A stretch of DNA of 64,000 bases. Origin: Paramacrobiotus metropolitanus. Its lineage: Eukaryota > Tardigrada > Eutardigrada > Parachela > Macrobiotidae. A model generated the notes under the pieces. It was not told the origin of the DNA. It did no database searches and was given only the letters and a program-made list of their open reading frames with translations. Location: positions 1 through 64,000 of the forward strand of contig NW_026570317.1 of assembly GCF_019649055.1 (NCBI RefSeq), read 5' to 3'. A program made the position numbers and the translations under genes. Numbering within the stretch: position 1 is the first letter of the stretch; each line of letters begins with the position of its first letter. Below, one piece after another: positions 1 through 58,454 of this stretch.

Positions 1-2
1 AT

Positions 3-24709: not shown

Positions 24710-27634
24710 ATGAACGCAACATCCCTTTATTTTCGCCAGCTCTTCTTAAACACCCGCGTGTTGAACTACGGGAATACGGTGCTGGTGCAGCGCTACAATG
24801 GCCAATGGTGGCTGGGATACGTTCAGGATATTGACGGCGATTACTTCTTCATTGACTTCGATGCCAGCACAATCACTGCCCAGTGGATCCATAGCAGCCG
24901 CTTGTGGCCGCATCATTTCCTTTACCGAATTTTAGGGCATTCACGTCAAGGCGAATCGGTGTACGTAGCACTACGTGAAACCAATGGCGGCCCAATGGTT
25001 TTTCATGACGCTACTGTTGTTGAAGACAGGAACGATGAATTTTACACAGTGCTCCTGGATGATGTAGACCCTACCGAAATCAATCCGTCTCCTACGGCTT
25101 GTCATATCTTGCTGCGGAATCACATGACTAAAGAGTTACCGGATCCTGACGATGGCAAATGTTTTTTCGGCCGTACCACGGGGTTCCTGTACAAAAAATA
25201 TGTCGTCGGCTTTCCCCAAGCAAGCTTGTTGCCCGACGTGGATTGCATCATACCGTTTCTTGCCCGTACATGCCATCTGACGTGGGAATGGTATGATGGA
25301 GAGTGTGATTCGGAGTGTCAGTTTAGGTATTCACTTTGCGAGGACCAAATGGAGTTCAGCTGCATGGAAAAGCACGCACAGAACTGTGGGTACTACGAAA
25401 TAGTAGTCGGCTGTAGAGTGTTCGTGCGACTGGGTTCCGATACGGTCACATTTATCTGCGCGGAAATGCACTTGGACCGCAACGGTCGGAGTATGTTCTG
25501 GACTAACGATGCCCTGAAGAAAGCTTGCGAGTACTATTTCGCACAGAGAACTCTGGCGCCGCCGGTTAGCGTGGGCATAATTGCGTGCGGTGAGCGCCAG
25601 TTTGGTAAGGGTGAGGTTGTGTGCTTGTAGAGGCGACCTTTCCCCTTTTCGCCAGTAAATTACAAAGATAACGTCTCTTACAAATTGTAATACACTTTAA
25701 TCTTAACATATCTCAACACTAGCAAAAAAACTGCAGTTAATAACGTAACACGGCATACTCTTCCAAATAATGTCTTGACGCCCCACAAATGTATTCGCCA
25801 GTGGTGCCCCGTTTGCTGAATGACTCCCAACAAGTAGAAAAAAAAGAACAACCCACTTTTTGCAGATACGGCGGATATATCGATTAATGAACTTTCTCAT
25901 CCAGTTATGGGTGGGATACTGTGTTATCTCGATGTGGATTCCCAGTTTCGAGCGAGCAGGTAACTTTCAATATTATTATCATGTTCGATACTAATCCGCT
26001 TGTAAAACTTACCAGTAAACGTTGGATTGTATCGTAGCGTACGATGGCGATAGTGAAATTTCATTAAATTTTAGCTTCGGTAAGTCAACAATACTTCTGG
26101 GCCCACTTCTTTATTAAGATAAGGCGATAGTTATACTTATGGCAACTGGTTGACGGCAACACATGCAAATTCTTCTGACCTCATTCGGGATAACTGGTGC
26201 CATAAAACCAGTTTTTTCGATTCAGACCTTTGGAGTACCTTTGGTTTTGACTCTTGCATTCGTCGTTATCAGAGTATGTGCGCTGTGGAAAATGCTGTGC
26301 GGCCAGTATGTGGACAACCGAAGCATCTTTATTGACCTGGGTGCAGCGTGCCAAAACCAACTACCGAATTGCGACTTGATGATCGAATACGAATACCTTA
26401 CGTATAAACTGGTCAACATGCTACAGCGCTTAATCACCAAACGCACCCACACGCTGGCGTTTGCGGAGAATCGAACATGTCAGGGTTATCCGGCGCTTAG
26501 TCTAGAAATGATTATTTCGGCGATCATTACAGTGGTGCAGGCCACACCCTTCCGTCTGCCCTACATCATTGTGAAGGACGGCCGGGATAGCCTGGAGAAC
26601 CGGGATAATGCATTTGCTTCCGAATCCTTCCTGACAATCTTCCGCAGTTCCCGCACTGGCTGTTTCCAGTGCGCCGCGCTGTCGCAACTGATGAGCTTTT
26701 GCGATCAATTGGTGCTGATTAATTTCGCCGCTTCGTCAGCACTCGTCGAATCAGCGGAGCAAATATTGCTGGCCGATGACGAATCCCAGCTACCGGAGTC
26801 CGAACTAGCCTTTTGTCGCAATCACCCGTCAGATGACTTGGGAATCAACATTCCGCTTCTGCGCTTTCATTCCACGGAAACAGCCGCGGAGCACTGCCGA
26901 GTGTTGCTCGCAGCCGCTAACGATCATTGTCCGGCCGTCAGTCAGCGAGTCTACGAAAAGATCACAGCCCTGCATAAACGTTGGATGCGGACGGTGAGCT
27001 ATCCGGAACAGTGGAACGGTATACGAAGTTTTTTGCAACTGTAAGTGGCGCGCTCGTACACACGTGTGTAACCGGAAAATCGTCCGGACGGATGAACCGT
27101 CCACCGGACGCTTTTGCCTGTAAGCCGGCAAAACCGTCCGGCGGTCCAAGAAAACGTCCGCCGTGAATTTTGCCCACCCAGTTTTTTCTGCTCTATTCGA
27201 TCTTGTGGACATCCCGGACTGTATATTCGGGGGCGGACGGTTTTGCCGGCTTACAGGCAAAAGCGTCCGGCGGACGGTTCATCCGTCCGGACGATTTTGC
27301 CGGTTACAGTCGCCCTTAGTGGCGGCTGATATGCGGATCTTATGGAATTGATAAGTCTCATGGCCATTCTTCCTCTGTTCTGTTTTTCTCTTGTTTGGCA
27401 ATCAACTAATCTTTTGTGAGGAACCCGTTCCCCACAGCTTGGGGATAATTTTTCCTATCGAGACTGTACTAGACCAATTTCGTTATGTTATGGAATGCTT
27501 TGATTATTAGGTTCAACTGCCTTTGCCGGGATGACAATTCACAACGGTGGGACGCGCTAGATCTCCGAGAACTCGACATTGCTTCTTTAACCAATGTGAC
27601 CTTCGCAGTCCTGGATGCGTGGTACTACGACTGA
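24710..27634 (+). CDS. gene A: tandem Agenet-like / F-box protein, 626 aa
   Basis: Exons 24710-25604, 25866-25959, 26273-27040 and 27511-27634, all GT-AG, phases 1, 2, 2. Exon 1 encodes two Tudor/Agenet-like segments: NTVLVQRYNGQWWLGYVQDI to SSRLWPHHF (about residues 18-65), and ESVYVALRETNGGPMVFHDA onward (about 80-140), then a third conserved block ending GRSMFW...LKKACEYYF (about 230-285). Exon 2 plus the start of exon 3 form an F-box (ELSHPVMGGILCYLDVDSQF, then RVCALW). Exon 3 is a long conserved domain with no leucine-rich or WD repeats visible. The F-box predicts binding to SKP1 in an SCF ubiquitin ligase; the Agenet-like part could bind methylated or RNA-linked partners, as in FMRP. 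Both roles are inferred. Intron 3 holds a foldback MITE. The gene looks intact. Confidence 0.8.
27067..27308. mobile_element. foldback MITE in intron 3 of gene A, 242 bp
   Basis: The ends are inverted copies (TGTAACCGGAAAATCGTCC at the left; complement of GGACGATTTTGCCGGTTACA at the right), and the inverted homology continues inwards through CCGGACGCTTTTGCCTGTAAGCCGGC on both arms. TA dinucleotides lie just inside both ends, which would suit a TA target duplication. A degenerate relative is at 8535-8620. Confidence 0.8.
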
Positions 27635-28722: not shown

Positions 28723-31560
28723 ATGAATGCAACATCACTTTATTTCCGTCAGCTTTTCTCAAACGCACGGGTACTGAACTACGGGAACACGGTGCTGGTC
28801 CAGCGCTACAATGGCCAATGGTGGCTGGGATACGTCCAGAATATTGACGGCGATTACTTCTTCGTTGATTTCGATGCCAGCTCAATCAATGCCCAATGGA
28901 TTCACTGCAGCCGCTTGTGGCCGCATCATTTCCTCACGCGATGGGAGGATGGGTCGCGTGAAGGCGAACTAGTGTACGTAGCGCTGCGCGAAACCGATGG
29001 GGACCCCATGGTTTTCTATGAGGCCATAGTTGTCGATGATGGGAACGATCAGTTTTACACAGTCGTATTGGATGATCCCGATTCTGAAAAAAGCAATCCG
29101 CCGTCTCCCAGGTGCCGTATCGTGCTGCGGAATCATATGACAGAAGAGATGCCGAATCCCAATGATGGTGGAAGTTTCTTTACACGGACCACCGGGTTCC
29201 TATACAAGAAACATGTCGTCGGTTTTCCCGAACCACATTTATTACCGGATTTGAATTTTATTATGCCGTTTCTGGCGCGCACATGCCGATTGACATGGGA
29301 TCGGTTCGACGGCGAGTGCGATTCGGAGTGCCAGTTTAAATATTTTGTTATGGATGACGAAATGAATTTTCACTGCACTGGACGGCACGCGCGGAATTTT
29401 GAGGGCTATGACATAGAAGTCGGATGTAGAGCGTTTGCGCGGGTGAGTTCCGATACGGTGACTTTTATTTGCGCCGAAATGCACGTGGACGAAGAGGGAC
29501 GGAGTATGTTCTGGACCGAGGATGCCTTGAAGAAAGCGTGCGAGTACTATCTGGCAGACAGACTAACGGGAGTGCCTGTTAACACGGGCACAGCTCCTCG
29601 AAGTGCACGCCAGTTTGGTAAGTTCAACGTTATGTGAATTATGTTTTGTAGGGTGAATATTATTACTGAAGTACTCGTGTTATCGCATCCGGTTTTTTAG
29701 GTTTTTCCTTATTTTACTGTACTGAATAATCGTTTTTTCGTAGTCCTTTTCTATATCCCTTTCCAAGTTTCACGAACAAAAATTATTTGGGAATGAAATA
29801 AAAACTAATAATTGATTAAGCGAAAAATACAAAGAAGATTTCAGCAATTCCGAGACAGGGCAATAAACTTACTACAACCTAGCTTACGCAATTTATAACT
29901 CGGATAGCTCAGATAGTGACGGAATAACAGTAGTTTGCGCGTGCCGAGTAATTCACAAAGCGATAACAATGTCTGTTGTATGTAGTACGAGTTAAGATGG
30001 AAACTGAATAATACCCTGCAGATATGGAGAAATCGTCTATCAACGATCTTCCGCATCCAGTCCTGGGTTGTGTATTGCGCTATCTCGACGTGGAATCGCA
30101 GGTTCAAGCGATCAGGTGAGTCCCTGCAAAACTTAATTATGGGTAATAATCCGTGAGAGCCTACTAAGGAAGGTAGTGCACCTGATCAACTTCCAGAAGG
30201 GTAGAGAAAAAGCTAAGAAGCAATGGCAAAAGTAGCTGGGTTTTGGACGCAGGGCCGGGACCAGAAACCACACATCAGCCAAGGGGGGGGGGTATTCTAT
30301 CGCTTTTTCGATGACCTCTGCCGTGAAGAATTTTGCAATGTACCTGGCCGTGGCTCCATGAGCCCACCTCCCTTTAAGTTCACCACAGCTCAGAAGTGCG
30401 GAACAGCTGCTGTTTATGATAAATAGCCGTAAGCCAGCGCCCGTTTTACACGAAAATCCTGACATCCTGTGCTGAGTTTATCAAAAAGTTGAAGAAAAAA
30501 TAATGTGAATGGGATCTTACGTCATTCGCCACGAATCGGAGCTGATTGTGAAAAGCCTCTTAATTTTACAAGAGTTTAGCTATACCTTTCAGAGCGGCGA
30601 TTGGGCGGTTTCATGTACGTTGCAGGAATGCAGGCTATCCCGTGTAACTTGCAGCGAAAGCAAACTTTACGAGAGGTGTAAGCGGTTGCGCGCTTTCTAA
30701 CTGTTTTGAGCCGGGCACTTCGTCTGGCCACTTTGTCTGGCACACGACACCTTGTCCCGTAGCGAACAGTATCCCGGCTAATCGTTGTCCGTTGTTCTGT
30801 CCGGACGACTCATATTTGTCGATTATTTTTCACCACTTGCATTTTTTTTGCCAGAGTTTGTGCGCTCTGGAGAATGCTGCGCGATCATTACGTGGACAAC
30901 CGGAACATACTGATTGATCTGGGCGCAGCATGCGAAAGCCGTCCACAGAACTGCGAGTTGCTGGTAGATTACGAAAACGTCCTCACGTACAAACTGGTCA
31001 GCATGCTGCAGCGCTTGCTCTCGAAGCGCACCCATACGCTGGCGTTCACGGAAAACCGACAAGATCCCCGTCAACCTGCGCTGGTCCTTTCAGAGATTCT
31101 GTCAGCGGTCATAACAGTCGCGCGAGCCAAAGAAATTCATTTACCCCGCATCATTGTGAAGAACGGCGGAGATAGCGATGAGCTTCCCTCGAACTCCTTC
31201 CTGACGATCTACCGCAGTCCCCGCAATGGCCGCTTTGAATGCGTTGCGCTGACGGACTTGTTAAGCGTGTGCGATCAACTGGTGTTGATCAATTTCGCCG
31301 CGTCATCAGCCGTCGTCGGGTCGGCAGCTCAAATACTGCTCGCTTATGACGAATTAGATCTCCCAGATTCCGAAATTCCGTTCTACCGCACGGATGCTCC
31401 GGATAGCTTGGGTATAACGATTCCGCTCCTGCGCTTTAATTCCACGGAAACGGCCACGGAACAGTGTCGAGCGATGCTGGCAGCAGCCAACAAACACAGT
31501 CCGGCCGTCAGTCACGGGCTCTGTGCACGGGACAGTACCGGTAGCTCGGTCACTTGTTGA
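28723..31560 (+). CDS. gene B: Agenet-like / F-box protein truncated by a minisatellite, 564 aa
   Basis: Exons 28723-29617 (895 nt, the same length as in A and E), 30022-30115 (94 nt) and 30855-31560; phases as in gene A. Exon 1 has the same Agenet-like blocks (NTVLVQRYNGQWWLGYVQNI). The F-box reads DLPHPVLGCVLRYLDVESQV, then RVCALWRML. In exon 3 homology to the family stops after PAVSH (about 31513), where the codons run into a tandem repeat and meet a TGA at 31558-31560. The protein therefore lacks the last 32 or so residues of exon 3 and all of exon 4, and gains 14 residues of repeat-coded tail. Coding sequence before that point is clean, so it may still be made. It is either a truncated gene or a recent pseudogene. 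Confidence 0.75.
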
Positions 31561-32690
31561 CGTAACGAGTTCTGTGCACTGGACAGTAGTGTCAGCACGG
31601 CACCCGCTCACCTAACGGGCTCTGTGAACTGGACTCTAGTGGTAGCTCGGTCACCCATTCACCTAACGGGCTCTGTGCACTGGATAGTACCTATCGGTAT
31701 ATTTTGACCTAACGGGTTTTGGGCACTGCACAGTAGTGTCAGCTAGGTCACCCGCTCACCTAACGGGCTCTGTGAACTGGACGGTAGTGTCAGCTCGGTC
31801 ATTTGTTCAGTTGACAAATTCTGTGCTCTGGGCAGTATCGGTAGCTTCAGGAAGCAGCTTCTGCTTTGCCTCTGCGTTTCTTTTGGTTCACTGCCGGTCT
31901 ATTTCAATAATTTCATAGGTTTATTTTTAAAATCTTATTTCGCCAAACAGCATCAAAACGCAAATTTGGTATAAAATTCGGTTCATCGTTTTGAGTATTG
32001 GAAGGCATTCATTCTGGCTTTTAGATCTACGAATAATTTATTTTGAATCCGCGAAACGAACTTACCCCTGTCTTCCACGCACTAATCTACAAACTCCCAG
32101 AACCTTTGCACTGGACATAGTTCAGTCACTCACTGACAATTCGGTACTCCCTAACCTAGCGGGCTCTGGTGACCGGACATCCGTGGACGTGGTAGTTCGG
32201 TCGCTCGTTCACCAAAGGGTCTTGTTAACCGTGGTTCCGTCTTGTTAACCGCCCTTTGCCCCGGACAGTAGTGGTAGTTCGTTCACTCGTTCTCTAATGG
32301 ATTTTGTGCACTGGGCGGTAGTGACAGCTCGTTTACTCGTTCCCTAATGGGCTTTGCACACTGGATAGTAGTGACCGCTCGGGCACCCGTTCACCTAACG
32401 ATCTCTTTGCACCGGACAGTAGTGGTGGCTCGGTCACCGGTTCTTTAACGAGCTCTGTGCACTGGACAGTAGTGACAGCTCAGTTAATCGCTCGCTTCAC
32501 GAGTTCTTTGCACGGGACAGTAGTGACCGCTCGGTCACCCGCACACCTACCGAACTATAGTGGTCACTTACTGGCATAGCGGGCTATGTCAACTAGACTT
32601 TAGAGGTATTTCGGTCACTCGCCGAACTTATAGGTGTGTCACCATGGGTGCACCGAACAGTGGCGGTAGTTCGGTCACTGATTGAACAGA
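31513..32690 (+). repeat. about 50-bp minisatellite replacing the 3' end of gene B
   Basis: Units of roughly 50 bases follow the pattern TAACGGGCTCTGTGCACTGG, ACAGTAGTGGTAGCTCGGTC, ACCCGTTCACC. About six units span 31513-31840 and about twelve more, increasingly diverged, span 32090-32690. Between them (31850-32085) the repeat is not recognisable. The first unit begins inside the coding sequence of gene B. Confidence 0.85.
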
Positions 32691-34187: not shown

Positions 34188-35115
34188 TACTGATGTACAG
34201 TATACTGAGCATAGAGAGAGGAGAAACAGCATTTCCAGAAGGCCGACAAAATAGCCGGCAATCCGGAGCAGAAGTACGATTCAACGCTGAAATTTCGTTT
34301 GTTACGTTTTTTTTTGCCATGAAATATGCTCTAAGGAAATCATGCATAAGGTAAGAGTTTCTCAGGATATTTTTCTGGGCCACAGCCGTGGTCGAGAGCG
34401 GTGAGAGCACACGTATCGCTGTCCGAACTATTGTTTGTTTGTAACCTATTGGTGCTGATCAACTAGGAACCAGAACAGAGTCACACTTGAAAGATCTGAC
34501 TTTGGTGAATCGCTAAAACAGTGATTCAGATTGGCAATCGCTTTAACCGGAAATGAAACCACAGTACCGCTGAACTGGTAGACACCGGCTCGCCGAAACA
34601 TATAAACCATGCAGTCGCATTACGCATTCCTGGCGTTCCATCTACCGTAGAAATAACAAACAGGAAAACTGGTCCCGTGCACTGCATTCATAGAAATAAC
34701 CATCGTGCTTTGCATATTGTGACATTTTTCTTCGGATACGCTTTCGCGTTTCGCGTTAACACCCTACCCTCACTTCAAAAAGAAAAGTTGCGAACATTTG
34801 CTAAATTTAGGAGTACATATTGATAAAATCATAAAGATGCCGTTTGAATCAGTGCTGACTCGCAGTTAAAAACTACCGCACTTGAGCTTAAGTATGTAAT
34901 ATATATGTGAGTGTGCGTAAAATGCCTCCTCATTTTCTCGCTCGGGTATTTTCATGAAATGCTAAAAAGTTCGCGATGTTTTTCGGGATTTTTGAAGCCT
35001 ACCAAGCACAATAAGTTGGAGAAAATCGCTGAACAGTTGTAATACATTTTGTGTACTTCTGTGTAATACTTGAAGTACATTTCGAAAAGACGACAGTTCA
35101 ACAATTCCCTTCAAG

Positions 35116-36896
35116 ATGACCACGCAACGGCATATTGTTATCAGCGAGCAAACTGATCAGAAGATAGCGCACTTCACACTGAAATGGACCTTCGACCACT
35201 TCGCCTCGTACCGCAACGACGCCATCACATGGTACAACAGCGGCATCACCATGGCCGAACTGGGGTTTGATGAGCCCATGCAGGGACGTTGGTGTATTGG
35301 CATAAAACCTTGCCATACAGTTGCGGACTGGGTGTGGCCAGCGGAAAGTCGTTTCCTGGGAATCGCGCTGGGTTTCGTCGACAGTACGGGTGAAGTTGCA
35401 TACAACGGCCCACGTCAACTGCACGCCGAATTCCACGTCCGGTGAGATTCTTTTAGCAGTAGTGGAACGTTAAAAAGTATGTGTTTCCTAGTTGAATTTG
35501 CCATCAACCTGGAAATGAACTGCTGCTGTTCATTCAGATATCGTACATTAGACAACAGACATACAACCACTTTCCTAGCACTGCATAGTGTAACCGAACG
35601 TGCAACAAGTCGTTCGAGGAAAAATAATAAAAAATAAATTTGACAAGATAATTAGCTTTGGCCCAATAACAGTTTAGACAGTCTTTTTTCTTTTGAACCG
35701 TTAACTTAAACGTTACACGACAAAGCCAGTTTTTTCCTTTTGTTACTCAAAGAACCGGTTTTTGTCCCATATAATCCACTTACTCTCACATGCGTAAAAT
35801 ACATTGTACAGCAAAACAAAGAATGCTTCGTCTGCATTTTAACAGGAAGTATGCTTTCGCAGAAATCTGTTTATTTCAAGTTAACTGGTAGTAAATTTTT
35901 CGGACTTCTAGACAGCTTGCTGCTACAGCATATAGTATCTGCTGATCTCAAGTTATTAAGCAAAACAACCAATACCGCAATGACCACGTAATAATTAAAA
36001 CAGTAACCGAAACGAAAATCGTCTTAAAATGGAGCGCGTTAATTCGGGTTCACAAGTCGGTCAGCTGCGTAACAGTTTACGACAATACTTACCACAACAG
36101 GATAGGCAGTTACCTAATTAATTATCATTGTAGTTTAACTACCGGCGAAGGCTCGACACTACTCCACGAGCAGCATGACGCAGCCGTATTCTTGAGAGGG
36201 CAGAATGTCTGGCGTAACGATTGCTTCATACGACAAGATCGCCTGCTGGGCACACGTTGGCGCGCCGGTCTCATCCGCGACAACTTGATCACGGTCGTAA
36301 TGGACATTAAGATGCATGACCAGCCCCACGTCATCCGCATTCCAGAGCTGGCGGTTACTTCGCTGTGCACCAAGGCCTTCCTGCAGCGCCAGCGCGAATG
36401 CTGGCAGTCCGAACAGCATCGGGATCTGGCGGATTTTGTCCTGCGCGCCAACGACGGTACCGTCTTCCGGACGCATCGCTTTCTGCTGGCGGCGCATTCG
36501 CCGGTCTTTGCCGCCATGTTTACACACGATTTCCAAGAGAAGCAGAATTGCGGCTGTGAAATGGCCGATATGGATAGGGAGTGTGTCGAAGTCCTGCTGG
36601 CGTACGTCTACGCGTGCGATGTTTCCAAGGTCACCGTGGATAACGCTGAGAAGATCCTGATCATGGCGGATAAATATGAGATTATGGATCTGCGCGGAGT
36701 ATGTGAAAACATCTTGGCGAGTAATGTCCTGGCGCAGAATGCCGACCACTTTCTGGAATTGGCTAGTCAACGGCAACTTCCTGTACTGCAGCATGCAGCT
36801 GGAAAAGCCGCTGGCCACGCATCATCACTGCAGCAAGCGAAAGAGAAAAAACGTGCTAATCGGTTGAGATCGCTGTTTCGTCATTCTTCTGCTTAG
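35116..36896 (+). CDS. MATH-BTB protein, 362 aa, two exons
   Basis: Exons 35116-35441 and 36134-36896, phase 2 at a GT-AG intron of 692 bases. The first 165 or so residues form a MATH domain (FTLKWTFDHFASYRND, GRWCIGIKPC, FLGIALGF, then GLIRDNLITVVMDIKM). Residues about 190-300 form a BTB/POZ domain (DFVLRANDGTVFRTHRFLLA, SPVFAAMF, ECVEVLLAYVY, ILIMADKYEI). This is the layout of SPOP and of nematode BATH proteins, adaptors that bind CUL3 through BTB and substrates through MATH. The C-terminus is basic. The exon border and phase are the same as in the minus-strand paralogue at 48.3-50.3 kb. Start at ATG 35116, after an in-frame break. Substrate unknown. Confidence 0.9.
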
Positions 36897-44792: not shown

Positions 44793-47700
44793 ATGACTTC
44801 GTATTTTTCTTGTGGCGTCCGGCGTGGTCAGTTCAACTTGGGCAATACCGTTCTGGTGAATTTAACCCGTGCTGACGAATATCTGCTGGGATATCTCCAG
44901 GACATCAATGCCGACCAGGTGTTCATTGATTTCGACAGCGAGCGCATCGCACCGCAGTGGGTCCCGATGCAGCGCGTCTGGCATCACGATAAACCGAGCC
45001 TTATAGCGGAACTTCCCTGTGACGTCCATGTGGCCGTCCGTCGGGAAGCGGGCGGACCGTACATCTTCGGCCCGGCAAAGTTACTGTGCAGTTGCAGTTC
45101 TTACGACCAGTTTCTCTGTTGCGTGTCGTTGGAGCATGCTTCTTCTACGTCCGAGAAACCCAGCATTCGTATCGTGCATTCTTGGCAGCTTATTCACAGA
45201 CTGCCCAGTAATTGGCGACCGGACAGAATTTGCCGGTTGCCTATAAAAAAAGTGGTGTATGGTTCCGACCAGCCACATTCAATCAGGGATATCCAAGAAC
45301 GGCATATTGAGCGGATACTGGATGTGGGATTTCGCCACGGGAATCGCCCACGGGATCAGGGTCGTGATCGCGTATTCGTTCGGGTTACGGCAAAGAAATT
45401 TATGTTCCTGATTATGCGTATTCAGTGCTGTTGTCCGTCTAGTAAGACTCGGGAATGCCTGCAGTCCAGCTGTTGGTTGACAAGCACCACGAGAAAAGTT
45501 GCCGCCGGGATTGAGCACTGTTTGTATAATCTTTCGCGTAGGCTTAACCAGACGCATATGCTCAACCTGTGCTACGGTCAACGGCAACCGGTCATCCGTG
45601 TTTTACCTCCGCCTTCTGCCGGTAAGGATCAACGCGCTCGTTCACCGTACGCAGAGCTCCATAGTATCTTTTGACAATTTGAAACCTCTTTAATTGAAGG
45701 AGAGGAAGTACTGTAATATAGAAAAGCACACGGAAGGCGAACAAAATGCCCATATAGGTTATGAACCAAAATCTGCTGGTGCTGCTTCCTTCTGTATGTT
45801 GCCGATATGACATTTGGTACCAGGGATATCGCTCACAACGGTCTGATACTAATGGAATTTGGTGTCTTCTTTCATTTCAGGGAAAAAGGAGCTTGCACTT
45901 TTTAATCTACTGCCGGAGATTCTGTCCATAGTCATCTGTTACTTGGATATTGTTTCACAAGGAAAATTAAAACGGTATGTCGCACGTTTCGATTCAGAAC
46001 GTGGTCGGGATTACAACGCACCAACGAAATTTGAATACTCTTGAGTTTTGAACAACAAAAAGCAATCTTAAGTGTTGGTAAGCTCTAAAAAAATGTACGA
46101 GCCTGCTTATCGGTTACTGGCTTGCTTTTCGATTTGATTTTTTAATGCTCCGTTGTCCTCAACTTGCCAAAAGAAATTGCAGTTATAGGAAGTTCTAATT
46201 TGTTTAAATTTTATTATGTGGAAAACGGAATGCGACCGATCCAGTTACTGTGATTCGTAGTGTATACTTCGTAGTGATTCGTAGTGATTCGTAGTGTGAT
46301 TCGTAGTGCATGTATTGTATATTTCTAATTTGAAAAAAGTAGTGATCTTTATGCTTTGGAATGTACGTGCAACGTTTTCGCCATGAAACGTTTTCATTTA
46401 TGTTCACTTTTTTTTGTCAAGAAATTTTTACAAATGGAACCCATATGTAGGGTTAAATATAAATATGCAAGCGTAATTCAGTGACCAAACTTTTTCATTT
46501 GAAAAAAAGCCGACGTCCAACAAAAGGTGAAGCATGTGTATCACGACCCTTCCAGTTTGCTTGTAGTCGTAGATATTCTTTTTGCTCTAAGCATCCGCCA
46601 GATGTGCTGGGAATTGCATAAAAAATACTAAGTTCTGTAAAAGCGTTCCCTTCCTACAGAGTGTGCAGTGTATGGAACGCTGTAATTTGTGACCGGGCAT
46701 TTTCCACCTGCATTACAATTGATTTCTCCACACTTAGTCGACAGATACTACGGCGCGCGGAGACAGAAGGCTACCATATCGCACTCCTGCTCCATCGATT
46801 TGTTAATGCTAAAACAAAAACGTTAGCATTAATAAACATGGATTACCGGACGGAATGCAATAATCCCGTTATTTCGCTCGTTGCCAATTGGCTCATTATA
46901 GCAAGGATTATTCTCCCTCTGATTATTGTCAAGAATTGCCGGATAACTATTGTAAAAGCACCGTATGGAATATACACCGACTACACTTTGGGTCTCGCCA
47001 GAAGCGAACAGCGAAAGATCGATTTTCGGCCGCTCCAACTGAAACAAGCCTGCCGCCGTGTGGTAGTACTGAATGCAGAGATAAACTGCGGGGCATGGAC
47101 AGGCGTGGTATTCCCACATCGAGCGCGAAAGCGTATTAAACTGAAGGAGTGGACCAACCTAATTATTTCGGTACCGAAGCTGCAGTTTCGTCAGAGCCAG
47201 AGCGATGCGGATGTCATTATGCAGTTGAAACATGCGCTGGAGCGAAACTGCTATGGGGTTACTCCTTTCGTAAAGAATCGAATCAAGGCAGTGCACGCCG
47301 GCTGGGTCAGACAGTACCCGTATCATGGAACCTATCCTGCAAATGAATGGTATGGACTCCACGAACTGCTGAAGCTGTAAGTTGCTTAAGTTTGTTTGGG
47401 TTAGCTTTCGTAAACCAAGGAAACGCCTGAAACGTTTTCTGAACGGATATTCAAAAACCGGTTGTGTCTTGCGGCCAGATTTGCCATCGGCTTTAGCGCT
47501 GACTTTCTGATCCGCTGCCCTACTTGCTAGCTTTTGGATGGGAATTGAATAATGTTTTAAATTGTACTTATGGGGTAGTAAATTAATATTATGGTGACTA
47601 ATGGGATTTTTTGTTGCAGCTTTGGTGCCTATTCAACAGCGTCAGGTGTGGAATTTTGTAACGATTCGGATCATCAGGACTATGCAGAATTTTTTAGAGG

Positions 47701-47824
47701 CTTAGATTTGAGGGATTTCGAAAAACTTCCCATGGGAAATATCGTATATACGATACTTGCGTGCGGTCACCTTCGGCTTTTCCGACGCATAAATGGATAT
47801 CATCCTCCCCTTTTAATCTTTTGA
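44793..47824 (+). CDS. gene D: divergent Agenet-like / F-box protein, 614 aa
   Basis: Exons 44793-45621, 45881-45974, 46660-47376 and 47620-47824; phases 1, 2, 2 as in gene A, and total length divisible by three. Exon 1 starts MTSYFSCGVRRGQF and has the first Agenet-like segment (NTVLVNLTRADEYLLGYLQD, then FIDFD, then VWHHDKP) and a second (VHVAVRREAGGPYIF). The third block is poorly conserved and cysteine-rich. Exon 2 plus exon 3 give an F-box (NLLPEILSIVICYLDIVSQG, then RVCSVWNAV). The terminal exon is longer than in the other copies (68 residues against about 41) and diverged. It is the most distant of the five copies. The intact frame over four exons despite strong divergence suggests it is under selection. 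Confidence 0.75.
46250..46312 (+). repeat. short GATTCGTAGT tandem repeat in intron 2 of gene D
   Basis: About five imperfect copies of (T)GATTCGTAGTG in the intron between the F-box exon and exon 3. Confidence 0.8.
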
Positions 47825-48275: not shown

Positions 48276-50329
48276 TCAGGAGTGAGAACGAAGCGAGAGA
48301 AACCGACCACTGCGGGGGCAGCGGGGCTGCTTTGTCGTTCGCTGCACTGACGGTGCGTGGCAAGTGACATTCCGAGCGGCATCCTGCAGTATCGGAAGTT
48401 GCCGTTGGCGTGCCAGTTCCAGATCGTGCTCAGCATTTCGCTCCTGTACATTATTTGCCAAGATAGTTTCACACACTCCGCGCAGATCCATAATCTGATA
48501 CGTATCCGCCATGATCAGCATCTTCTCAGCGTTATCTACGGTGACCGCGGTAAGATCACCCGAATATACAAACGCCAAAAGGACTTCCACACACTCCCCA
48601 TCCATATCGACCAGGACAGGGCCGCCGCTCTGTGTCCCCTGGGAATCGCACTTAAACATGTCGGCAAAGACCGGCGAATCCGCCGCCAGCAGGAAGCGAT
48701 GCGCGGGGAAGACGTTACCGTCGTTGGCGCGCAGGACCACATCCGCCGAATTCCGATAGTTTTCGGCTTGCCAGTAGCGTTGGCGGCGCTGATAATGCGT
48801 CGTAACAGTCAGCTCGGGAGTGCAGTCTACGTAAGCCTGGTCGTGGATCTTGATGTCCATTAGTATCGTGATCAAGTTATCGCGGATGAGACCAGGACGC
48901 TGCCCGTTACCCAGCAGACGATCTTGGCGTAGGAAGCCTTTGTTGTGGCAGACATTCTTTCGTTTCGAAAACACGGCTGTCGTCTGATGCTCCTTGACGA
49001 GAGTCATGGATTTGCCAGTAGTTAAACTGCAACGATAATTAAATGCGCGTGATGATGCAATTAGTATTGTCCTCAACTTGGTGGCAGGTATCAAGTTTGG
49101 GAAAGTGTCTCAGCGATATCCTGCATGTGCTACGGGTAATATTATTTAGCGCATCCCACATTATCCTTCATGCACACACTTGATCTGTCCTCTTAGTTTT
49201 CTAATCGTTTCTAGGTTTCTTGGTACTCCTTGTATTCGAAGACGTTAAACATTAAAACTGCACCTTAAGTTTCTTGGTGGATTGTACGCGGGACACGCAA
49301 AAGGTTATTGTGGGCTACGGTAGTAAGTAAAACTAAGACAAACAATTACGATGGCATTTAAGGGATCCGTAGAGGATACCATAGGATACAGCGGACAAAA
49401 ATAAAAAAACGTGCCGTAAAACGTTTAACTGGTACGAAGTCGCACATATCTACGACGTAGTACTTATCTTTCTGCTGGGGCACCTGAATTGACTCGCACT
49501 ACAACTTCGGCAATATTTCTTGTTTCTTACATGCATTACAATTACTTGTTGATCCTAACCAGATAAGGTTTTTAGTGTCGCTTTGTAGCTAATGATTTCA
49601 GACCAACCTATACTATGTCTGACCAAAATATGTCTTGTAACCTGACAGAAGATCACAAAAACAATTAAACGAACTTCCCTTTAGGCGCTGCTAAAATATC
49701 ATGGAGCCGCAACAAAGCAAAGATGAGACTGAATGCAACATATGTGGCACAAAAACCATGCACAAAAAGCCGATGTTCTTTTTGTGGGCCAGTAAAAAAA
49801 TATTTTCTCATGTGCTCAATGACTCGTTGGCTCTTTGATTGCGACCTTTGTTAGCTACTGTATTGTGGCTTTTCGACAGAAAGGGATGAATGTCCCAAAT
49901 TAACGTTTACAGTTGAATGTTCGTATATTCGTTACAGCAAACGTAAAAGTTGTCCGCAGTATTTTTGCAGATTGATGGAAACCCGTTGGAAATGTTTAGG
50001 ATATCGTACCGGAGGTGGAAATCGGCATGCAGCTTATATGGTCCGCTGTACACGCTATAACTCGTAACATCGAAGAAGCCAAGCGCGATCCCCACAAAAC
50101 GTTTTTGCCCGGACGTTTCCACGATTTTATGACACGGTACCATACCAATACACCAACGTCCCGGCATCGACTCACGAAATCCCAGTTCAGCCATGGTGAT
50201 GCCACTGTCGAAGAGAGTGAAGCAGTCATTGCGATACGAGGCGAAATTATCGATGGTCCATTTCAGGGTGAAGCGAAATGCCTTTCGGCCGGTTTGCTCA
50301 TCGATCACAGTCTTCGTTTGCGTTGCCAT
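48276..50329 (-). CDS. MATH-BTB protein, 356 aa, two exons (minus strand)
   Basis: Exons 50329-50010 and 49026-48276, phase 2, intron 983 bases with GT-AG ends. It is a paralogue of the plus-strand gene at 35116, with the same intron position. MATH: FTLKWTIDNFASYRNDCFTL, GRWCIGMVPC, FVGIALGFFD, then GLIRDNLITILMDIKI. BTB: DVVLRANDGNVFPAHRFLLA, SPVFADMF, ECVEVLLAFVYSGD, MLIMADTYQI. It probably acts as a CUL3 adaptor; substrate unknown. A start 11 codons earlier (50362) is also open, but the ATG at 50329 aligns with the start of the paralogue. It is oriented opposite to the gene at 35 kb, so the duplication involved inversion or the two copies moved separately. Confidence 0.9.
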
Positions 50330-50362
50330 TTGGACGGCAATCGTTAACTCTCGCTTCTCCAA

Positions 50363-51867
50363 ACCCGGTTGACTTTAAAAAAAAATGTGCCTATTAAAGA
50401 AAAAATGTATTGCAAATGTGACAACTTTCTTTTGCTAAACAGACATCAAAATGAAGAAAAAAATTCGTTTACTTATTAGTAAGTACACACCGACATTACG
50501 ACATAACCCACAACGAAAAAGAGAGTACGTACAGATATGCCGCGTAAATGGATAAATGTTAATGTTGCACTCAGTAACTAAAAGCCGGTTACGTGTATTT
50601 GTACGTGCAAGTCAACAGCAGTTCTACGGCCGGCATCTTTCCACCGAACCTTAACACTAATGCCCAGTACCCTTAAAATGTGCAGAAGTGGGCAATTTTT
50701 CTTTTTGAAGTGGTTGTAACGGAAAACTGTAGATCGTATTCGAAGAAAAGTGACAACATGCAAGTCTGCAATTTCTACGAATGCAGTGCTGCACGAACCC
50801 GTTTTCCCTCTTGACTCGTAAACGGATGACTGCAAACGAGTTTACGACTGCACATGTAGGCTGTAACGAGCCGGCTGCTCGGCCCGGTGTCCGTTATCGG
50901 GCTGCGCATATACCTTCCGCCGGCGATGTTCGGGTCATAAATGAAGCGATATAAGGTAAACTGGAAGTCACCGCACTGGATGCCCCCTTCTTCGGTTATT
51001 AGACCGCAAACTGAATTTTAAAACGTACGGTTCGATAATAGAGCTGAGTAGCGTTCGCGAAGGCGTGACAACCTCTTCGTACATGTGACCACATGTTTAA
51101 GTCCCATCAATGATGCAGCAACAAAAAAAGATTTAAACAAATCATGTAAATGCACTGTTTGCCAAATAAATGCACCTCTTAGAATAAGCGCACCTGCTCT
51201 ATGGTATTCGAAGCCCAGTGCTGCAAATTCGATAATTACGGTACATGCGTTCCACGTGAATATGAAGTAATGGTAAGATCAACTTGCCGGTAAAAGTAGA
51301 TCAAATTGTTGGTTTTTTCGAGCAAATTCGAAAAATGTCGACAAGAAGATCAGGTACTCTAGTGATCTTGGAGATCCGTTGATGAACGAAGAAGCCTCGT
51401 TCGCGACGTCCATTATGTTCTATATGGCGTTCACACGTTATCAGAAAGAAACATGGATTTTAGAATGCTTTGAGAAGAAAGAACTGCTTCCCTTAAAATA
51501 GATGCGTCGGACTGCAGGCCGAGAATTGCCCGGATTTGTTACCTATCCACAACTGATGCGGCATTGTACAGCGCGTTGATATGGATGCAGCTGCGCAAAC
51601 AAACATTCAGTTATTTACGCCTCCGCGTTTCTTATGGTCCACGACCACTTCATTTCATTTCGAATGAATATTTGTTAGTGTAGGTTATGTCCATATTTCG
51701 TCGAAACATGATAAATCGAAGAATTGTAGTTCATTCTGATCCTTCGTACACTTCCGGATGGACATGTACTGTACCTCACGTTCATTTACCCTGGGCTAGT
51801 CACGGTGATTTCCATAAAACTAGTTACCTTAATAAGAAATTTACATGACAGTTCATGTTCGCACTTT
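50363..51867. other. intergenic DNA with a minus-strand pseudo-exon-like segment
   Basis: On the minus strand, bases about 51000-50800 read EEGGIQCGDFQFTLYRF..., NIAGGRYMRSPITDTG, with cysteines. The plus-strand region 50860-51130 is similar to 59170-59470, where the same segment appears with a frameshift. No complete gene could be built. Confidence 0.45.
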
Positions 51868-51875: not shown

Positions 51876-53435
51876 GTAGCCGGCAGGAAGGTGGACGGGT
51901 GGATGGTGGATCCTCAATGAATGTCATCCACCTTTCTGGAAAGGTCATCCACCTTTCTTGAAAGGTCATCCACCTTTCTCAACCACCATTCTGTTAAGGT
52001 CATCTACCTTTCTAGAAAGGTCATCCACCTTTCTTATCCACCTTTCTGTCGGCTATATCCATTGATCTTACTACGAAGCCATTTTTCTCAATGTATTTCT
52101 TTGAAAGCAACAACTGGATAGATCAATGGTAGCCGCCATCAGATCGACAGATCGGTGGGTATGTTAATTCGTTTTTGGCAGTTTTGTCCTCTAATAGCGT
52201 ACAGTAATAACTTTTCGCTTATGTCGCTCGTTTTTCACTGATGATTTAAAATTAGAGGCGTATGGGACTTTCTCAATTTTCATTTCCTTAATTTACCCAC
52301 TAAAATATCTCGAAACATATTCGGCGCATTCGCAAATATACCAACGCTGGAAACAAGACAAGTAAGACTCAAGGAAGTTCTGAAATAGAATCCTAACATA
52401 CTATGTAAACTAAGTCACCGGGTGAATGGCCAAACGCAAAGCGCCAATGTTAATTTATGCAAGCGAGTCCGGCTCAGTCCGCTACACCAACTTCCCACAT
52501 TAATGGTTTTCCTTTTACCTACAAAACAAAGTCATCCCATCTTATAGTTCTCCATCAGCGTTTCGTGGCATTCAACATCCCGTGTTCTGCCGAAAATTAT
52601 CCAACTTCCTTCAAAGCTTATCCACCTTTTTTTAAAGGCCATCCACCTTTTTCAAAGGTCATCCACCTCTCTTCAAAGGTCATCCACCTTTCTTCAAAGT
52701 CCGTCCACCATTCTTTAAATGTAATTCAAAATTATGCAGGGGAATACCTCGATCTTAGCCTATGCGCACCAGCGTATTTGCCAGTCCGAATGGCAAAAAG
52801 CCTGCTTTATTTATTACAGTACGTCTGTTTATTGGATCAAGCAAGTAGGCTAACAGTATCACGCATGCAGCGCATATGAGCATAGTCGCTCTGTCGGCAA
52901 ATGCTCTTGCAGATGGTAGAAAAGTCCTTAACTTCCAAGTCTTCCATTAAGTAATTTTTTTCATGGCTAGCATTAATAAAATTCACGTCTTCTTGTGACT
53001 AATCGGTTACTATCGGTGGCTTTCCCATACGCCTCTAATTTTAAATCATAAGTGAAAAACGAGCGACATAAGCGAAAAGTAATTACTGTACGCTATTAGA
53101 GGACAAAACTGCCAAAAACGAATTAACATACCCACCGATGTGTCGATCTGATGGCGGCTACCGTTGATCCATCCAGTTGTTGCTCCCAAAGAAATACATT
53201 GAGAAAAATGGCTTCGTAGTAAGATCAATGGATATAGCCGACAGAAAGGTGGATAAGAAAGGTGGATGACCTTTCTAGAAAGGTGGATGACCTTTCCAGA
53301 AAGGTGGATGACCTTAACAGAATGGTGGATGAGAAAGGTGGATGACCTTTCAAGAAAGGTGGATGACCTTTCCAGAAAGGTGGATGACCTTCATTGAGGA
53401 TCCACCATCCACCCGTCCACCTTCCTGCCGGCTAC
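51876..53435. mobile_element. foldback DNA transposon, 1,560 bp, with 8-bp target duplication
   Basis: The arms are long inverted repeats: left about 51876-52272, right about 53024-53435. Both ends read GTAGCCGGCAGGAAGGTGG going inwards. Direct repeats ACACGCTT lie immediately outside at 51868-51875 and 53436-53443. An 8-bp duplication is typical of hAT and P-type elements. The arms contain many tandem CATCCACCTTTC units, and more occur in the centre (52600-52710). No transposase ORF is present, so it would need a partner for movement. The two arms are over 90 percent alike by eye, so the insertion is probably fairly recent. Confidence 0.9.
51925..52050 (+). repeat. CATCCACCTTTC tandem units in the left arm of the foldback element
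   Basis: About six units of (GGT)CATCCACCTTTC(TNGAAA) span the left arm. The right arm carries the inverse (GAAAGGTGGATGACC) at 53245-53395. Each unit itself has the near-palindrome CTTTCTNGAAAG. Confidence 0.85.
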
Positions 53436-54332: not shown

Positions 54333-54796
54333 TGTTAGCTGGAGGACATGCGCTCCCGCTCTCTCTCCTTTCGCCGTGTGTTGCGAGTTACGTGAGTCTG
54401 TTGGTGGCGCTGCGCGTCGCCGTGGCGCTTAGATCAAAGCGGCCGCCGTCATGCACGGGCATGCTGTTTGCACTTGGCACTGTTTGTGTGCTCACATTGC
54501 ATGGTTCTGCAGTTCTCATCGCTGTCTGTCTTTGCTCCTTCGATATCGTGTGCGCGCGAGTGATCTCTGTTCTTTTACCACCCGCCATACCCTGCTGTTT
54601 TCTTCAGCTGTTATTTCGCACTTGCTCAATAAAGGGGACTTCGGTTGCGCAGAGCACTGGTCGCTCTCTTCCACCGACCCCCGGTCGGCCGGCTTCTCGC
54701 TTACCCACGGTCACCGCACGCAGCCGATCAAAGAGAGCACCAGACTCCCAGCAGCCGGGGCTCCAGTGCCCCCAGTGGATTCCGGAAGCGGTAACA
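54333..54796 (+). mobile_element. solo LTR, 464 bp, TTAA target duplication
   Basis: It starts TGTTAGCTGG and ends GCGGTAACA, with TTAA directly outside on both sides (54329-54332 and 54797-54800). AATAAAGGGGACTT near 54631 marks a probable poly(A) signal with about 165 bases of R/U5 after it. The interior is GC-rich and contains a 164-codon chance ORF. A 4-base duplication suits Ty3-like elements. The flanking context makes the perfect inverted repeat TGTTAATGTTA/TAACATTAACA when TTAA is included. No internal element remains, so recombination between two LTRs probably removed it. Confidence 0.75.
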
Positions 54797-54799
54797 TTA

Positions 54800-55534
54800 A
54801 CAGTAAGTAAAGAGTAAAAGTTTCTTCAAGAAACATCTCGTAAGCGCAGTTAGATCATGTAATATAAACAGCGTGCGATCGACAACAGATATCGTGTCCG
54901 AGAAATGAGTAAGAATCTCTCTGCTGAGAATCAGTTTATTATTGGCTGACAGTGATAGCCACTCCTTAGATCGACCGGCCACCGGTCATCGGAGGCGCAT
55001 GTATAATGAGCACGGCATACCGGTAACTTCCAGTTGCAGGCAGCAGCAGCAGCAGCAAGCAGAAACTTCATCGAACGAATAAAAATTTATTCTGGGATTG
55101 TCTTTAGTCGCTGTTAAATGCCTGCGGATACGTGTTAGCTAACACAGCCTAAGCCGGTCCCTTTGTTTACAACTTTACCTTACCATCACTGGTCCATCTG
55201 ATCAAGCCTGTACAGATATCTTACGCATAACATGTCCGTATGAATTACTCAATTTTCATAAAATCCGACCATGATTTATTCCAACCGTGATACTTTCAAA
55301 TGCTTTCGGCTGAAATTCTAGTAAATATCGGAGCAATGCAATTAAGCCTACAACAAAAGTGGGAAGTTCTTTGATATTTTCTAATCTCTTATTAGAATTT
55401 GAATTTTCTCTTGTATTCTACGTGATCATATAAACGTTATGTTTGCATTCCGAACGATTTTTATAAACTGAAGACGATATTTTAAATTATAGAACAGTAA
55501 TTATATAAATCGTTTTTGCTTAGCTAGATTCCCC
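54800..55534. other. intergenic DNA upstream of gene E, with a CAG microsatellite
   Basis: A (CAG)5 tract lies at 55041-55056. No gene is seen. Confidence 0.6.
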
Positions 55535-58454
55535 ATGAATTCGACATCATCCTACTTTCGCAACTGGTTCTCGGGTGCACGCGAGGTGAACTTCGAGAAC
55601 ACGGTCCTGGTGCGGCGCGACACTGGCCAGTGGTGGCTGGGATATGTTCAGGATATTGACGGCGATCAGTTCTTCGTCAACTTCGACGCCCCTACAATTC
55701 CCGCCCAATGGATTCACACGAAACATCTCTGGCCGCATCGCTATATCTACAGCAAGTTACGCTACGGCTACATCGTGCAGGTAGCTTTACGGCTTGCCCT
55801 TGATCAGCCGATGGTTTTCCAGCAGGCCGAAATTATAGAAGTGAAGAACTACTGGACCCTAACCGTGTGTGTGGATGATGGGGTTCCTGCTCTAAAGGTG
55901 CCTTACTCGAAGAACTACTACACTGTGGAATTGAATCAGTGTGCTGCGCAGCTTCCGGCATCGGATAACTGCGAGAATTTTTTTGGACGATCTGCCGGGT
56001 TGTTGTATGAAAAAATTGTCATCAGCTTCCCCGAAGCCCATTTACTGCCGGACCTGCATTTCCTGCCGCTGTTTGTGTCCCGCAACGTTCTGACAGATTG
56101 TCTGCGTGGCCGTGTTGAGTCGGATGGAAAATGCATGGTCGGCCGACCGGTTGCATCTGACGGGATAACTATTCCGTGTACCGGCACGCATCGGCGGACT
56201 AAGTCAATTTTCGAGTACGTTATCGACCAAGTCGGTTATCGAGTGTTTGCCCGAGCCGGAATGGATGCGATCACTTTCGTCTGTGCTGTGATACGCGGTG
56301 ACGAAGCGGGGCGCAGTATATTCTGGAACGAAGATGTCTTGAAGAAAGCGTCCGCGGAGTATCTTCTATGGAAACGAACCGCTGAGCCTAACTGCGCAGC
56401 GATGACTCCAAGCCAAGCGCTCGTGTATGGTCAGTGATCCAAATCGTGTTCGCGTTTTCCCAATCAGCTTTCTTCCTTAGCTCCAGTGACCTTTCCTAAT
56501 TTCTATGCCTACAATTTGCAGCTTTTGTAAAGAAAATGGTCCGATATTTAACATGGCGCCATAAGGGAGCAATTTTTGGAATTTTCATTTTATATACGTA
56601 TCTCGAAATCCTTCTTTATATCGTGTCGGGCCATTTAAATACGCAGCCAAATGATTTGCAGCCATATACATACAGACTGTATGAACTGTTTCTGCGCGCC
56701 GTTACGCGTTTATATGAAATTTTGTCAAATATAATGAGCATGAACTGCGCTCACAAAAGTGGGTATGACTTGCCGGGCCAACAGGCATTTATTGGCCCAG
56801 TGTATGCCGCCTTCTAACAGTGCAAGACAGATGTTACACGATGCGCGAAAGTTTCAGTGGATGCAGAAAGAATCCCTAGTCGTGCATTCATTAGCGCATG
56901 TCATTTTAAACTTCCTATATCCGGTAGGTCACGAAGAGATGTCCATCAGCGAACTTGCGCATCCGCTTCTGGCTTGTATAATACAAAATCTGGATGTGGA
57001 TTCCCGGTTACAGACAACCCGGTAAGGGACCGCACTTTTACAAATAAATAAAAATCAACAAATAAACACCGAATAATTAAAGAAAAACAAAATCAATTTC
57101 ATGGCTTATGGCAGTAATGGTAACAGCTCTTATGCGGCTTACATCGCGAAGTGTAATTGCTATTACGCGAATGCACTTTTCGTTATTTTGGTTGCTTTTT
57201 CTCAGTAAAAAATCAATTGTTGTGTTGCTATTGAATTTCATTAAAATCTTTGAACATCGAAAATTGGACTTAACAGCTCGCATCCGTAATAGAAACCAAT
57301 ATGTCCGCTTCACTACTGGTACTTCAGAAGTCCTCATACTATAGTTCAAATACAAATAAGAACGTACCTGTTTCCGGCAGAGGAGCTACAAAAATATGGC
57401 ACGCCAGGGCAGATTATACTACCGAAGTTTTCAGTTTTCAACATTCCAAAAGCGCTGTTACTTTTGCATGCTGTGCTATTGAAAAGAATAGGTGTGACTG
57501 TTTACCAGGGTATGCGCGCTATGGCGGCGGATTTGGCGAGAATATGTTGGCATCCAAGACATCCTCTTTGATCTCTGCACAACATGCAGAAGAGCTCCGC
57601 AAGGTCATTTACTGGGAGCGGAACATATTTCCTATCTCCGGTACAAACTGGTCGCCATGTTGGACAGCATCCATCCCCAACGCACTCGTTCCGTGTCGTT
57701 GCAGGAGGACGGAAACCACGCCCACCCTGCGCTCTCTTTTCAAACGCGAATTTTGGCGGCAAAACGAGTCTTGGAAGCCAGACGCCACCGTGTGCCCATC
57801 ATCGTCATAAAGAACGCTCCGGACCGGTGGAAAGCGCCGCTGTTGACCATCCACCGCCATAACACAGACGGAACGCTGGAATGCCCAGAGTTAGTGGCCT
57901 GGATGGCGTTGTGCGAGAAATTGGTGCTGATCAACTACGCCGCGTCGGAAGCCATTCCGGCATCATCACGGCAGATATTACACCGGGATTCAGGATCGGC
58001 TTTGCCGGAGTCCGAGTGGCCATTTATGCGCCTCACCTTGTATGACACACCTGACTACAAAATTAACGTTCCCTTTCTACGCTTTGTGTCCACGGAAACA
58101 CCTTCCCAGCAATGCCGAAACTTCTTAGCAGCAGCTAACGACCATTGCCCAGCGGTTAGCCAATCTGTATATGAAAAAGTCTCAAGAGTTCACGCGCGAT
58201 GGGTAGACACATTGGTCTACCCGGATCAGTGGACCGGCATTCGAATATTCTTGAAACTGTAGGTAGCATAATTAATTTCTCTGTGGGTGCTGTACTGTCT
58301 CATGAGTTCTAACGAGTTCTTGCTGATTAGTTTCAACAATCTCAGCCAGGATTCCGAGCCGCATCGATGGGACACGATGGAGCTCCGTCAACTGGACATT
58401 GCTTCGTTGACCAATGTGACCTTTGTTGCTCTGGATGGATGCTTCAAAGACTGA
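55535..58454 (+). CDS. gene E: Agenet-like / F-box protein, 620 aa
   Basis: Exons 55535-56429 (895 nt), 56928-57021 (94 nt), 57509-58258 and 58331-58454; phases 1, 2, 2 and total length divisible by three. Exon 1 begins MNSTSSYFRNWFSGAREVNF and carries the first Agenet-like segment (NTVLVRRDTGQWWLGYVQDI, FFVNFD, HTKHLWPHRY), the second (YIVQVALRLALDQPMVFQQA) and the third block ending GRSIFWNEDVLKKA. The donor is a weaker GTCAGT. The F-box reads ELAHPLLACIIQNLDVDSRL, then RVCALWRRI. Exon 3 follows the family to its end, and the terminal exon reads ELRQLDIASLTNVTF. Exon 3 starts in the frame set by G at 57509; the other frames there are shadows. It is moderately diverged from A-C and looks intact. 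Confidence 0.8.

Follow-up and report, generated by a model that had tools for sequence, protein, structure and literature searches.

An F-box gene family with a predicted FMRP-type tandem Tudor front end in the tardigrade Paramacrobiotus metropolitanus

What do the five paralogous genes that follow one another on the forward strand of a single stretch of the Paramacrobiotus metropolitanus genome encode? The stretch analysed here (64,000 nucleotides of NW_026570317.1, hereafter the window) makes up the first part of contig C97 (562,990 bases) in an assembly of 169.8 Mb and 533 contigs, and the initial annotation had proposed that these genes join FMRP-like tandem Agenet/Tudor segments to an F-box, giving a ubiquitin-ligase adaptor that reads modified arginine/lysine or ribonucleoprotein (RNP) partners. 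From sequence comparison and structure prediction we found that the family does combine a tandem Tudor pair of the FMRP type with an F-box sequence, in that order of parts, and that this combination is amplified in the genome. In our judgement these are probably F-box proteins in which the N-terminal module of FMRP (the tandem Tudors and, less surely, a KH0-like part) stands ahead of the F-box and which act as SCF (SKP1-CUL1-F-box) adaptors; the role in ubiquitin ligation and the binding of RNP partners are putative functions suggested by sequence.

The loci A (24710-27634), B (28723-31560), C (39078-41554), D (44793-about 47380) and E (55535-58454), all on the + strand, share one domain order, namely Tudor1, Tudor2, a third alpha/beta block, the F-box and a C-terminal domain, which agrees with the earlier description of five paralogues built alike. 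They also share an intron plan of a long exon 1, a 94-nucleotide exon 2 and a long exon 3, separated by a phase-1 and then a phase-2 intron, the latter splitting the F-box in 5/5 models; exon 2 measures 94 nucleotides in all five, its start in gene E having been picked, at an AG, to preserve this length. A small exon 4 is present in A, C and E, where the apparent stops of exon 3 lie within splice donors (CT/GTAA.. or CT/GTAG..); the list of open reading frames (ORFs) takes these CTGTAA or CTGTAG donors for stops and so hides the exon. The end previously given for the family, 58454, proves to be the last base of the gene E stop codon, in this fourth exon. The parts of the five genes, with one stray piece, are as follows.

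24710-25604, + strand: gene A exon 1, with Tudor1 (residues 17-67), Tudor2 (83-135) and the KH0-like block (158-282); ORF and donor, predicted fold with pLDDT (predicted local distance difference test) 87.4, best PDB matches FMRP/FXR
25866-25959, + strand: gene A exon 2 (94 nucleotides), first part of the F-box; Pfam F-box 17.7 bits, cut-off 20.5
26273-27040, + strand: gene A exon 3, end of the F-box and C-terminal domain; gene model
27511-27634, + strand: gene A exon 4, tail and stop, completing a protein of 626 aa; tblastn with RefSeq tails, splice junctions
28723-29617, + strand: gene B exon 1, Tudor1, Tudor2 and KH0-like block; gene model
30022-30115, + strand: gene B exon 2 (94 nucleotides), first part of the F-box; F-box-like model 23.6 bits, cut-off 24.3
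30855-31560, + strand: gene B exon 3, end of the F-box and C-terminal domain, with a minisatellite in place of the tail; repeat 31514-31801
39078-39959, + strand: gene C exon 1, one Trp codon missing and a frame break near 39410; the RefSeq model P0001 starts after the break
40068-40161, + strand: gene C exon 2 (94 nucleotides), first part of the F-box; F-box 16.3 bits, cut-off 20.5
40469-41224, + strand: gene C exon 3, end of the F-box and C-terminal domain; gene model
41425-41554, + strand: gene C exon 4; identical (100%) to the tail of RefSeq P0001, junction taken directly from the sequence
44793-45621, + strand: gene D exon 1 (divergent, P0032-like), Tudor1, Tudor2 and KH0-like block; gene model
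45881-45974, + strand: gene D exon 2 (94 nucleotides), first part of the F-box; F-box 19.4 bits, cut-off 20.5
46660-47376, + strand: gene D exon 3, end of the F-box and C-terminal domain, with a tail-like match at 47675-47782 that has no clean junction; gene model
55535-56429, + strand: gene E exon 1, Tudor1, Tudor2 and KH0-like block; gene model
56928-57021, + strand: gene E exon 2 (94 nucleotides, start picked for length), first part of the F-box; F-box 18.1 bits, cut-off 20.5
57509-58258, + strand: gene E exon 3, end of the F-box and C-terminal domain; gene model
58331-58454, + strand: gene E exon 4, tail and stop; gene model
12669-12761, + strand: isolated piece of an exon 4 of this family; found by tblastn with the P0002 tail (E 2e-8)

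Gene D is the most divergent of the five copies. With its Trp codon missing and its frame changing near 39410, gene C is not one open protein as assembled, and RefSeq P0001 matches it from its second open piece onward. The final exon-3 codons of gene B enter a 51-bp minisatellite (31514-31801) that overwrites the end of the gene, so that the tail is lost, and tblastn with the RefSeq tails found no exon 4 for it; another array of the same unit length lies at 32263-32553.

The Tudor assignment was reached by two routes. In a search of PDB sequences with the family profile, the tandem Tudors of FMRP and FXR were the six best matches (E 0.0027-0.031), and Foldseek with two AlphaFold models gave FMRP/FXR as the ten best matches, the first of which spans Tudor1, Tudor2 and KH0; in the fold alignment, 1-199 of chain 4ova_C lies on model residues 19-284, third block included. 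A predicted structure of exon 1 lacking Tudor barrels had been named beforehand as a possible refutation, and the prediction shows such barrels at high confidence. Profile matches and predicted folds together argue for a tandem Tudor (Agenet) pair of FXR type in the family, in keeping with the initial annotation.

Several results weigh against this assignment. Exon 1 of D and E has no Pfam Tudor or Agenet match, and genes A and B remain below the Pfam cut-offs (12.6-18.2 against 27 for Agenet, PF05641; 14.2-15.3 against 25.8 for Tudor_4, PF18358). The Tudor1 of the class to which the window genes belong scores 22.6 against FMRP Tudor2 and 21.8 against FMRP Tudor1, with shuffles reaching neither score (0/40 for both), and since it fits both FMRP Tudors, the one-to-one pairing leans on hmmsearch, on the folds and on two further classes of relatives, B and C. 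The window-class Tudor2, taken alone, is weak against FMRP Tudor2 (1/40 shuffles; E 0.038), and hhalign of the whole N-terminus against FMRP yields a probability of 3.6% and places Tudor1 on Tudor2. Finally, the column of the FMRP Tudor2 pocket residue Y96 contains no Tyr among 23 RefSeq members (Leu 14, Val 5, Met 1, Pro 1, Ile 1, gap 1). In Tudor1, the pocket residue F32 of FMRP corresponds to family F50, kept in 23/23 of these members, among which W33, W34 and W59 of Tudor1 are invariant too. Mutation of F32 and Y96 in FMRP weakens its binding to FUS, LSM14A and other RGG proteins, according to a portion of PMC5430443, and an excerpt of PMC2970552 describes weak methyl-lysine binding by the Tudor2 of FXR. 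Methyl-mark reading by the window-class Tudor2 is unsupported, the pocket Tyr being lost. What stands of the original interpretation is an FMRP-type Tudor pair joined to an F-box; the reading of modified arginine or lysine would be a putative function, F32 being retained and Y96 not.

Relatives elsewhere in the genome bear on both halves of the architecture. A genome search with the FXR-specific Pfam Tudor model (Tudor_FRX1) gave 20 matches, 4 of them above cut-off: the ordinary FMRP gene on C5 and three places of class B, located on C106 and C209. One more class-B gene (C54) falls below the cut-off. Seven class-B proteins were scanned (two models built here and five from RefSeq). The F-box is above cut-off in 3/7 and Tudor_FRX1 in 1/7, the two occurring together only in the spliced L016 model (28.2 and 26.4 bits, respectively); that all five RefSeq proteins, and the L015 model as well, stay below the Tudor_FRX1 cut-off is a further point against the assignment. 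A profile of these five RefSeq proteins recovered FXR2 as the first PDB match (E 0.0023), followed by F-box chains of the SKP2 type (E 0.056 and 0.092). At 67% identity to the L016 model, P0039 is a paralogue on the same contig and not a second reading of the L016 locus.

For class C, eight F-box matches, mostly in long frames, were hand-picked from 149, hence not a random sample. Four of them (L023, L024, L028 and L029) match the class-B Tudor pair and the F-box in a single open frame, with Tudor domain E of 1.4e-10 to 5.8e-6 in a ten-frame search, so that here the combination of Tudor and F-box needs no splicing inference. The Tudor match is weak in L025 (domain E 0.034) and in L030 (0.0007, in a separate frame), and 2/8 are F-box proteins without the Tudor pair. 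By hhalign, class-C Tudor1 matches FMRP/FXR Tudor1 at E 5e-7 and class-C Tudor2 matches FMRP Tudor2 at E 0.001, with 0/40 shuffles in both cases; the class-C profile alone finds no FXR chain in PDB at E up to 1 (its first match is a ribosomal protein, E 0.2), so the Tudor link of this class comes from hhalign and the class-B profile. In the genome search for class C, 17 matches continue from Tudor1 into the F-box, and 8 of these contain no stop.

In the ordinary FMRP gene (L009, G000:C5:3432312-3435452, - strand), everything from Tudor1 through the RGG region lies in one open frame of 610 aa, with no intron there; exon 1 of the window family, like the Tudor region of this gene, sits in one exon. 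Two more divergent relatives lie within 7.5 kb at L017 (G000:C114, - strand), one having a Tudor1 near the Tudor_FRX1 cut-off (24.7 against 25.9).

The F-box motif follows the pattern LP..L..I...L....L....VC..W, and the F-box reading of the family, ...LxHPVxxxIxxxLDxxSQxRxxRVCALWR..., lies precisely over the exon 2/3 border. All five window copies are below the Pfam cut-off of 20.5 bits (A 17.7, B 19.3, C 16.3, D 19.4, E 18.1; gene B reaches 23.6 against a cut-off of 24.3 under the F-box-like model), and the F-box region, residues 281-340, has the lowest confidence of the whole model (pLDDT 33-51), both points counting against the adaptor reading. Among 27 relatives, 18 match PF00646 at E up to 0.1, and the cut-off of 20.5 is exceeded by P0002 (25.2 bits) and P0036 (20.8), as it is in class B by the L016 model, P0040 (24.1) and P0042 (23.6); in class C, 5/5 proteins are above the curated cut-off. 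SKP1 is present at four places in the genome. These values in relatives, together with the presence of SKP1, corroborate an F-box joined to the Tudor pair. The absence of a three-helix F-box across the exon 2/3 border had been the other refutation named beforehand; the F-box is evident from the sequence of relatives, the window copies score below cut-off, and the model there is of low confidence.

F-box adaptors usually carry WD40, LRR (leucine-rich repeat) or Kelch domains for their substrates, and in nematodes FTH/FBA2. Behind the F-box of the present family there is a family-specific alpha/beta part, this C-terminal domain having no Pfam match above cut-off in window genes A, B, C (exons 2-3) and E or in the 27 members. 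Along with the Tudor module, it is a candidate for the substrate-binding part. No WD40 or Kelch match was found by Pfam and no LRR was confirmed; FTH, FBA2 and the Tc1/mariner HTH had no Pfam match in the 27 members or in A, B, C (exons 2-3) and E, nor did RING, PHD or SRA.

The third block is modelled as beta-alpha-beta, inserted short strands (cysteine-rich by eye) and beta-beta-alpha, in the position of KH0 in FMRP. The topology and the fold alignment fit, but as KH0 by sequence the block was rejected, profile scores not standing above column shuffles: KH0 profile-profile scores are reached by 2/40 shuffles for the window class and 1/40 for class B, and the score between the third blocks of the two classes by 26/40, all of which speaks against this part of the proposed module. 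No KH or FXR C-terminal family is among the 7 Pfam families that the 27 members match at E up to 0.1. We therefore call the block KH0-like, its identity as KH0 being suggested by the predicted fold and unproven.

The architecture is massively amplified in the P. metropolitanus genome. A degenerate WWLGYVQD pattern of the window class occurs at 205 places (98+107) and the reversed control at 0, which puts the family far beyond chance. Scored searches, whose counts are lower bounds and whose matches are not equal to genes, gave at least 142 matches for exon 1 (138 of 795 candidates scored), at least 136 for exons 2-3 (135 of 768) and at least 142 for class C (118 of 1270); many are clustered, for instance on C11, C46, C81 and C141. 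Searches of protein databases found 32 relatives of gene A, all from P. metropolitanus, and among 5.8 billion protein sequences the family was found in this species only, the coverage of other tardigrade proteomes being unconfirmed. The database entries are labelled 'uncharacterized protein', several RefSeq models being named as isoforms, and the best matches of a literature search held no publication on this Tudor/F-box family. F-box adaptors themselves are known; new here are F-box adaptors with a front end unseen in the databases searched.

How the parts divide the work can be approached through their conservation. By sequence, Tudor1 is a shared, strongly conserved surface and by far the most conserved part, with a mean pairwise identity among the 23 RefSeq proteins of 0.70, compared with 0.35 for Tudor2, 0.41 for the third block, 0.19 for the linker, 0.45 for the F-box, 0.36 for the C-terminal domain and 0.49 for the tail. 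The distance between Tudor1 and the variable C-terminal domain would also suit a Tudor module that is a localisation or dimerisation handle, for example to FMRP-type granules, with the C-terminal domain alone choosing substrates, as has been proposed for nematode FTH. In line with such a handle, part of PMC12062965 gives the C-terminal FTH domain as the substrate part in nematodes, and FMRP residues 1-200 with a mutated pocket are described in a section of PMC5430443 as pulling down FXR1 at similar affinity. However, conservation is uneven along the front end, Tudor2 varying as much as the C-terminal domain does, and the C-terminal domain has no identified fold; we see the handle as a real possibility, if short of an even chance. 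It would be improbable that the Tudor likeness is convergence on a beta-barrel and the front end another tandem barrel (SGF29-, SETDB1- or Agenet-like) of no FMRP descent, given that FMRP/FXR come first by both sequence profile and Foldseek, and that the FXR-specific Pfam model exceeds its cut-off in one full model and, apart from the FMRP gene itself, at three genomic places.

The scale of the family raises two other explanations. Hundreds of places, many of them clustered, and copies with stops or frame breaks are compatible with a selfish or immune arms race, where the copies would be antidotes to toxin genes or degraders of parasite or mobile-element proteins and the FMRP module would reach foreign RNPs; precedents from nematodes and plants, namely F-box antidotes and a proposed role of F-box proteins in immunity, are treated in a portion of PMC12680543. 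Against it stand the ratios of nonsynonymous to synonymous substitution rates (dN/dS) of the window copies, which range from 0.04 to 0.53 and are below 1 in every domain with a usable estimate, so that there is no sign of positive selection at this coarse level, and we think an arms race rather unlikely. Between A and B the ratio is lowest in Tudor1 (0.10), followed by the third block (0.21), Tudor2 (0.27) and the C-terminal domain (0.30), values that are rough because dS is near or above 1 in several blocks. For the third block of gene C against A, B and E it is 0.36, 0.28 and 0.22. These ratios, well below 1, also contradict a graveyard of duplicated gene pieces without product, in which most copies are dead, as do the 130/142 exon-1 matches without an in-frame stop (12 have one) and the several RefSeq models named as isoforms. 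The frame break of gene C, the lost tail of gene B, the orphan exon 4 and the stop in 28/136 exon 2-3 matches, some of which come from intron run-in, are what such a graveyard would leave, but we hold it to be very improbable.

Under the SCF adaptor reading that we prefer, the F-box would bind SKP1 and thereby CUL1, and the near-invariant Tudor1 would dock every paralogue on a ligand class common to the whole family. Plausible ligands, as in the case of FMRP, would be RNP proteins that are methylated and RG-rich or that carry methylation of another kind. Individual substrates could then be picked by the parts that vary, namely Tudor2, the KH0-like block and the C-terminal domain, and would be ubiquitylated. 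The module probably originated through duplication of the fragile-X gene and fusion, followed by massive gene amplification. We hypothesise, tentatively and with considerable doubt, that the capture of an FMRP front end in an F-box gene, with hundreds of copies dominating the F-box repertoire, has produced an RNP-docked ubiquitin-ligase system, where Tudor1 brings many adaptors to the same (possibly methylated, RG-rich) RNA-binding proteins or to foreign RNPs. If true, an RNP or methyl-mark reader would be coupled to protein destruction in a desiccation-surviving animal, and, as in nematodes with their transposase-HTH F-box family, a huge adaptor family would have been founded on a borrowed N-terminal domain. 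Whether a single protein contains both Tudor and F-box can now be tested with the single-frame class-C genes.

Two BTB genes lie amid the F-box copies, at 35946-36893 (+) and 48279-49109 (-), with PF00651 at 71.6 and 61.3 bits, and by eye MATH-like stretches, without Pfam match, precede them (35074-35445 and 49910-50374); CUL3-type and SCF-type adaptors may therefore be found side by side in the window. Just upstream of gene A is a protein kinase gene (21796-23083, +) of at least two open pieces, which score 31.0 bits (just under cut-off) and 128.5 bits (above) with PF00069. Further along, a 491-aa frame at 62075-63550 (+) has several helix-turn-helix units (HTH_23 70.6 bits, CENP-B_N 48.5) and is transposon-like. 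Repeats include a 445-bp unit at 6146-7024 (2.0 copies, 100% identity; either duplicated very recently or produced by the assembly), a 21-bp unit (GGTCATCCACCTTTC...) arrayed in opposite orientations at 51923-52719 and 53241-53391, and, within 17221-17644, a nine-bp repeat with 24 copies at 17428-17644 that gives a Lys-Pro-rich frame on the - strand. The first 8 kb (1-8000) are GC-richer (0.52-0.54), with a strong AT skew in the first 6 kb, and possibly a mobile element; the long frames 1046-2266 and 2267-3193 have no Pfam match.

Among known systems, the N-terminal module of FMRP, FXR1 and FXR2 (PDB 4OVA, 4QVZ, 3KUF, 3H8Z) shares with the family the tandem Tudor pair, for which it provides the best PDB matches by profile and fold, the conserved Tudor1 pocket Phe32 and a best fold match that reaches the KH0 region. 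Unlike these proteins, the tardigrade family has its Tudor2 Tyr96 replaced and, by eye, a cysteine-rich insertion in the third block, and because KH1, KH2 and the RGG region are absent, with an F-box there instead, we do not file it under FMRP/FXR; the tardigrade keeps its ordinary FMRP gene beside the Tudor/F-box family. UHRF1, a tandem Tudor E3 ligase of the RING type with PHD and SRA domains, differs in its RING, the tardigrade family using an F-box and showing no match to RING, PHD or SRA. SCF adaptors such as SKP2, FBXO22 and GID2 have the F-box motif in common with it, SKP2-type chains following FXR2 in the class-B PDB matches, but the tardigrade F-box is central, behind about 300 residues of Tudor/KH0-like sequence. 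The F-box A2 family of nematodes, in which, as part of PMC12062965 describes, a transposase HTH came to stand ahead of the F-box and expansion followed, is alike in its borrowed N-terminal domain, its large lineage-specific membership and its C-terminal partner domain (transposase HTH, F-box, FTH), and unlike in that the part borrowed by the tardigrade is an FMRP-type tandem Tudor and not a transposase HTH, with no FTH/FBA2 match by Pfam. By analogy, this A2 family would be the nearest precedent in design, and the F-box antidotes and proposed F-box immunity the nearest in use.

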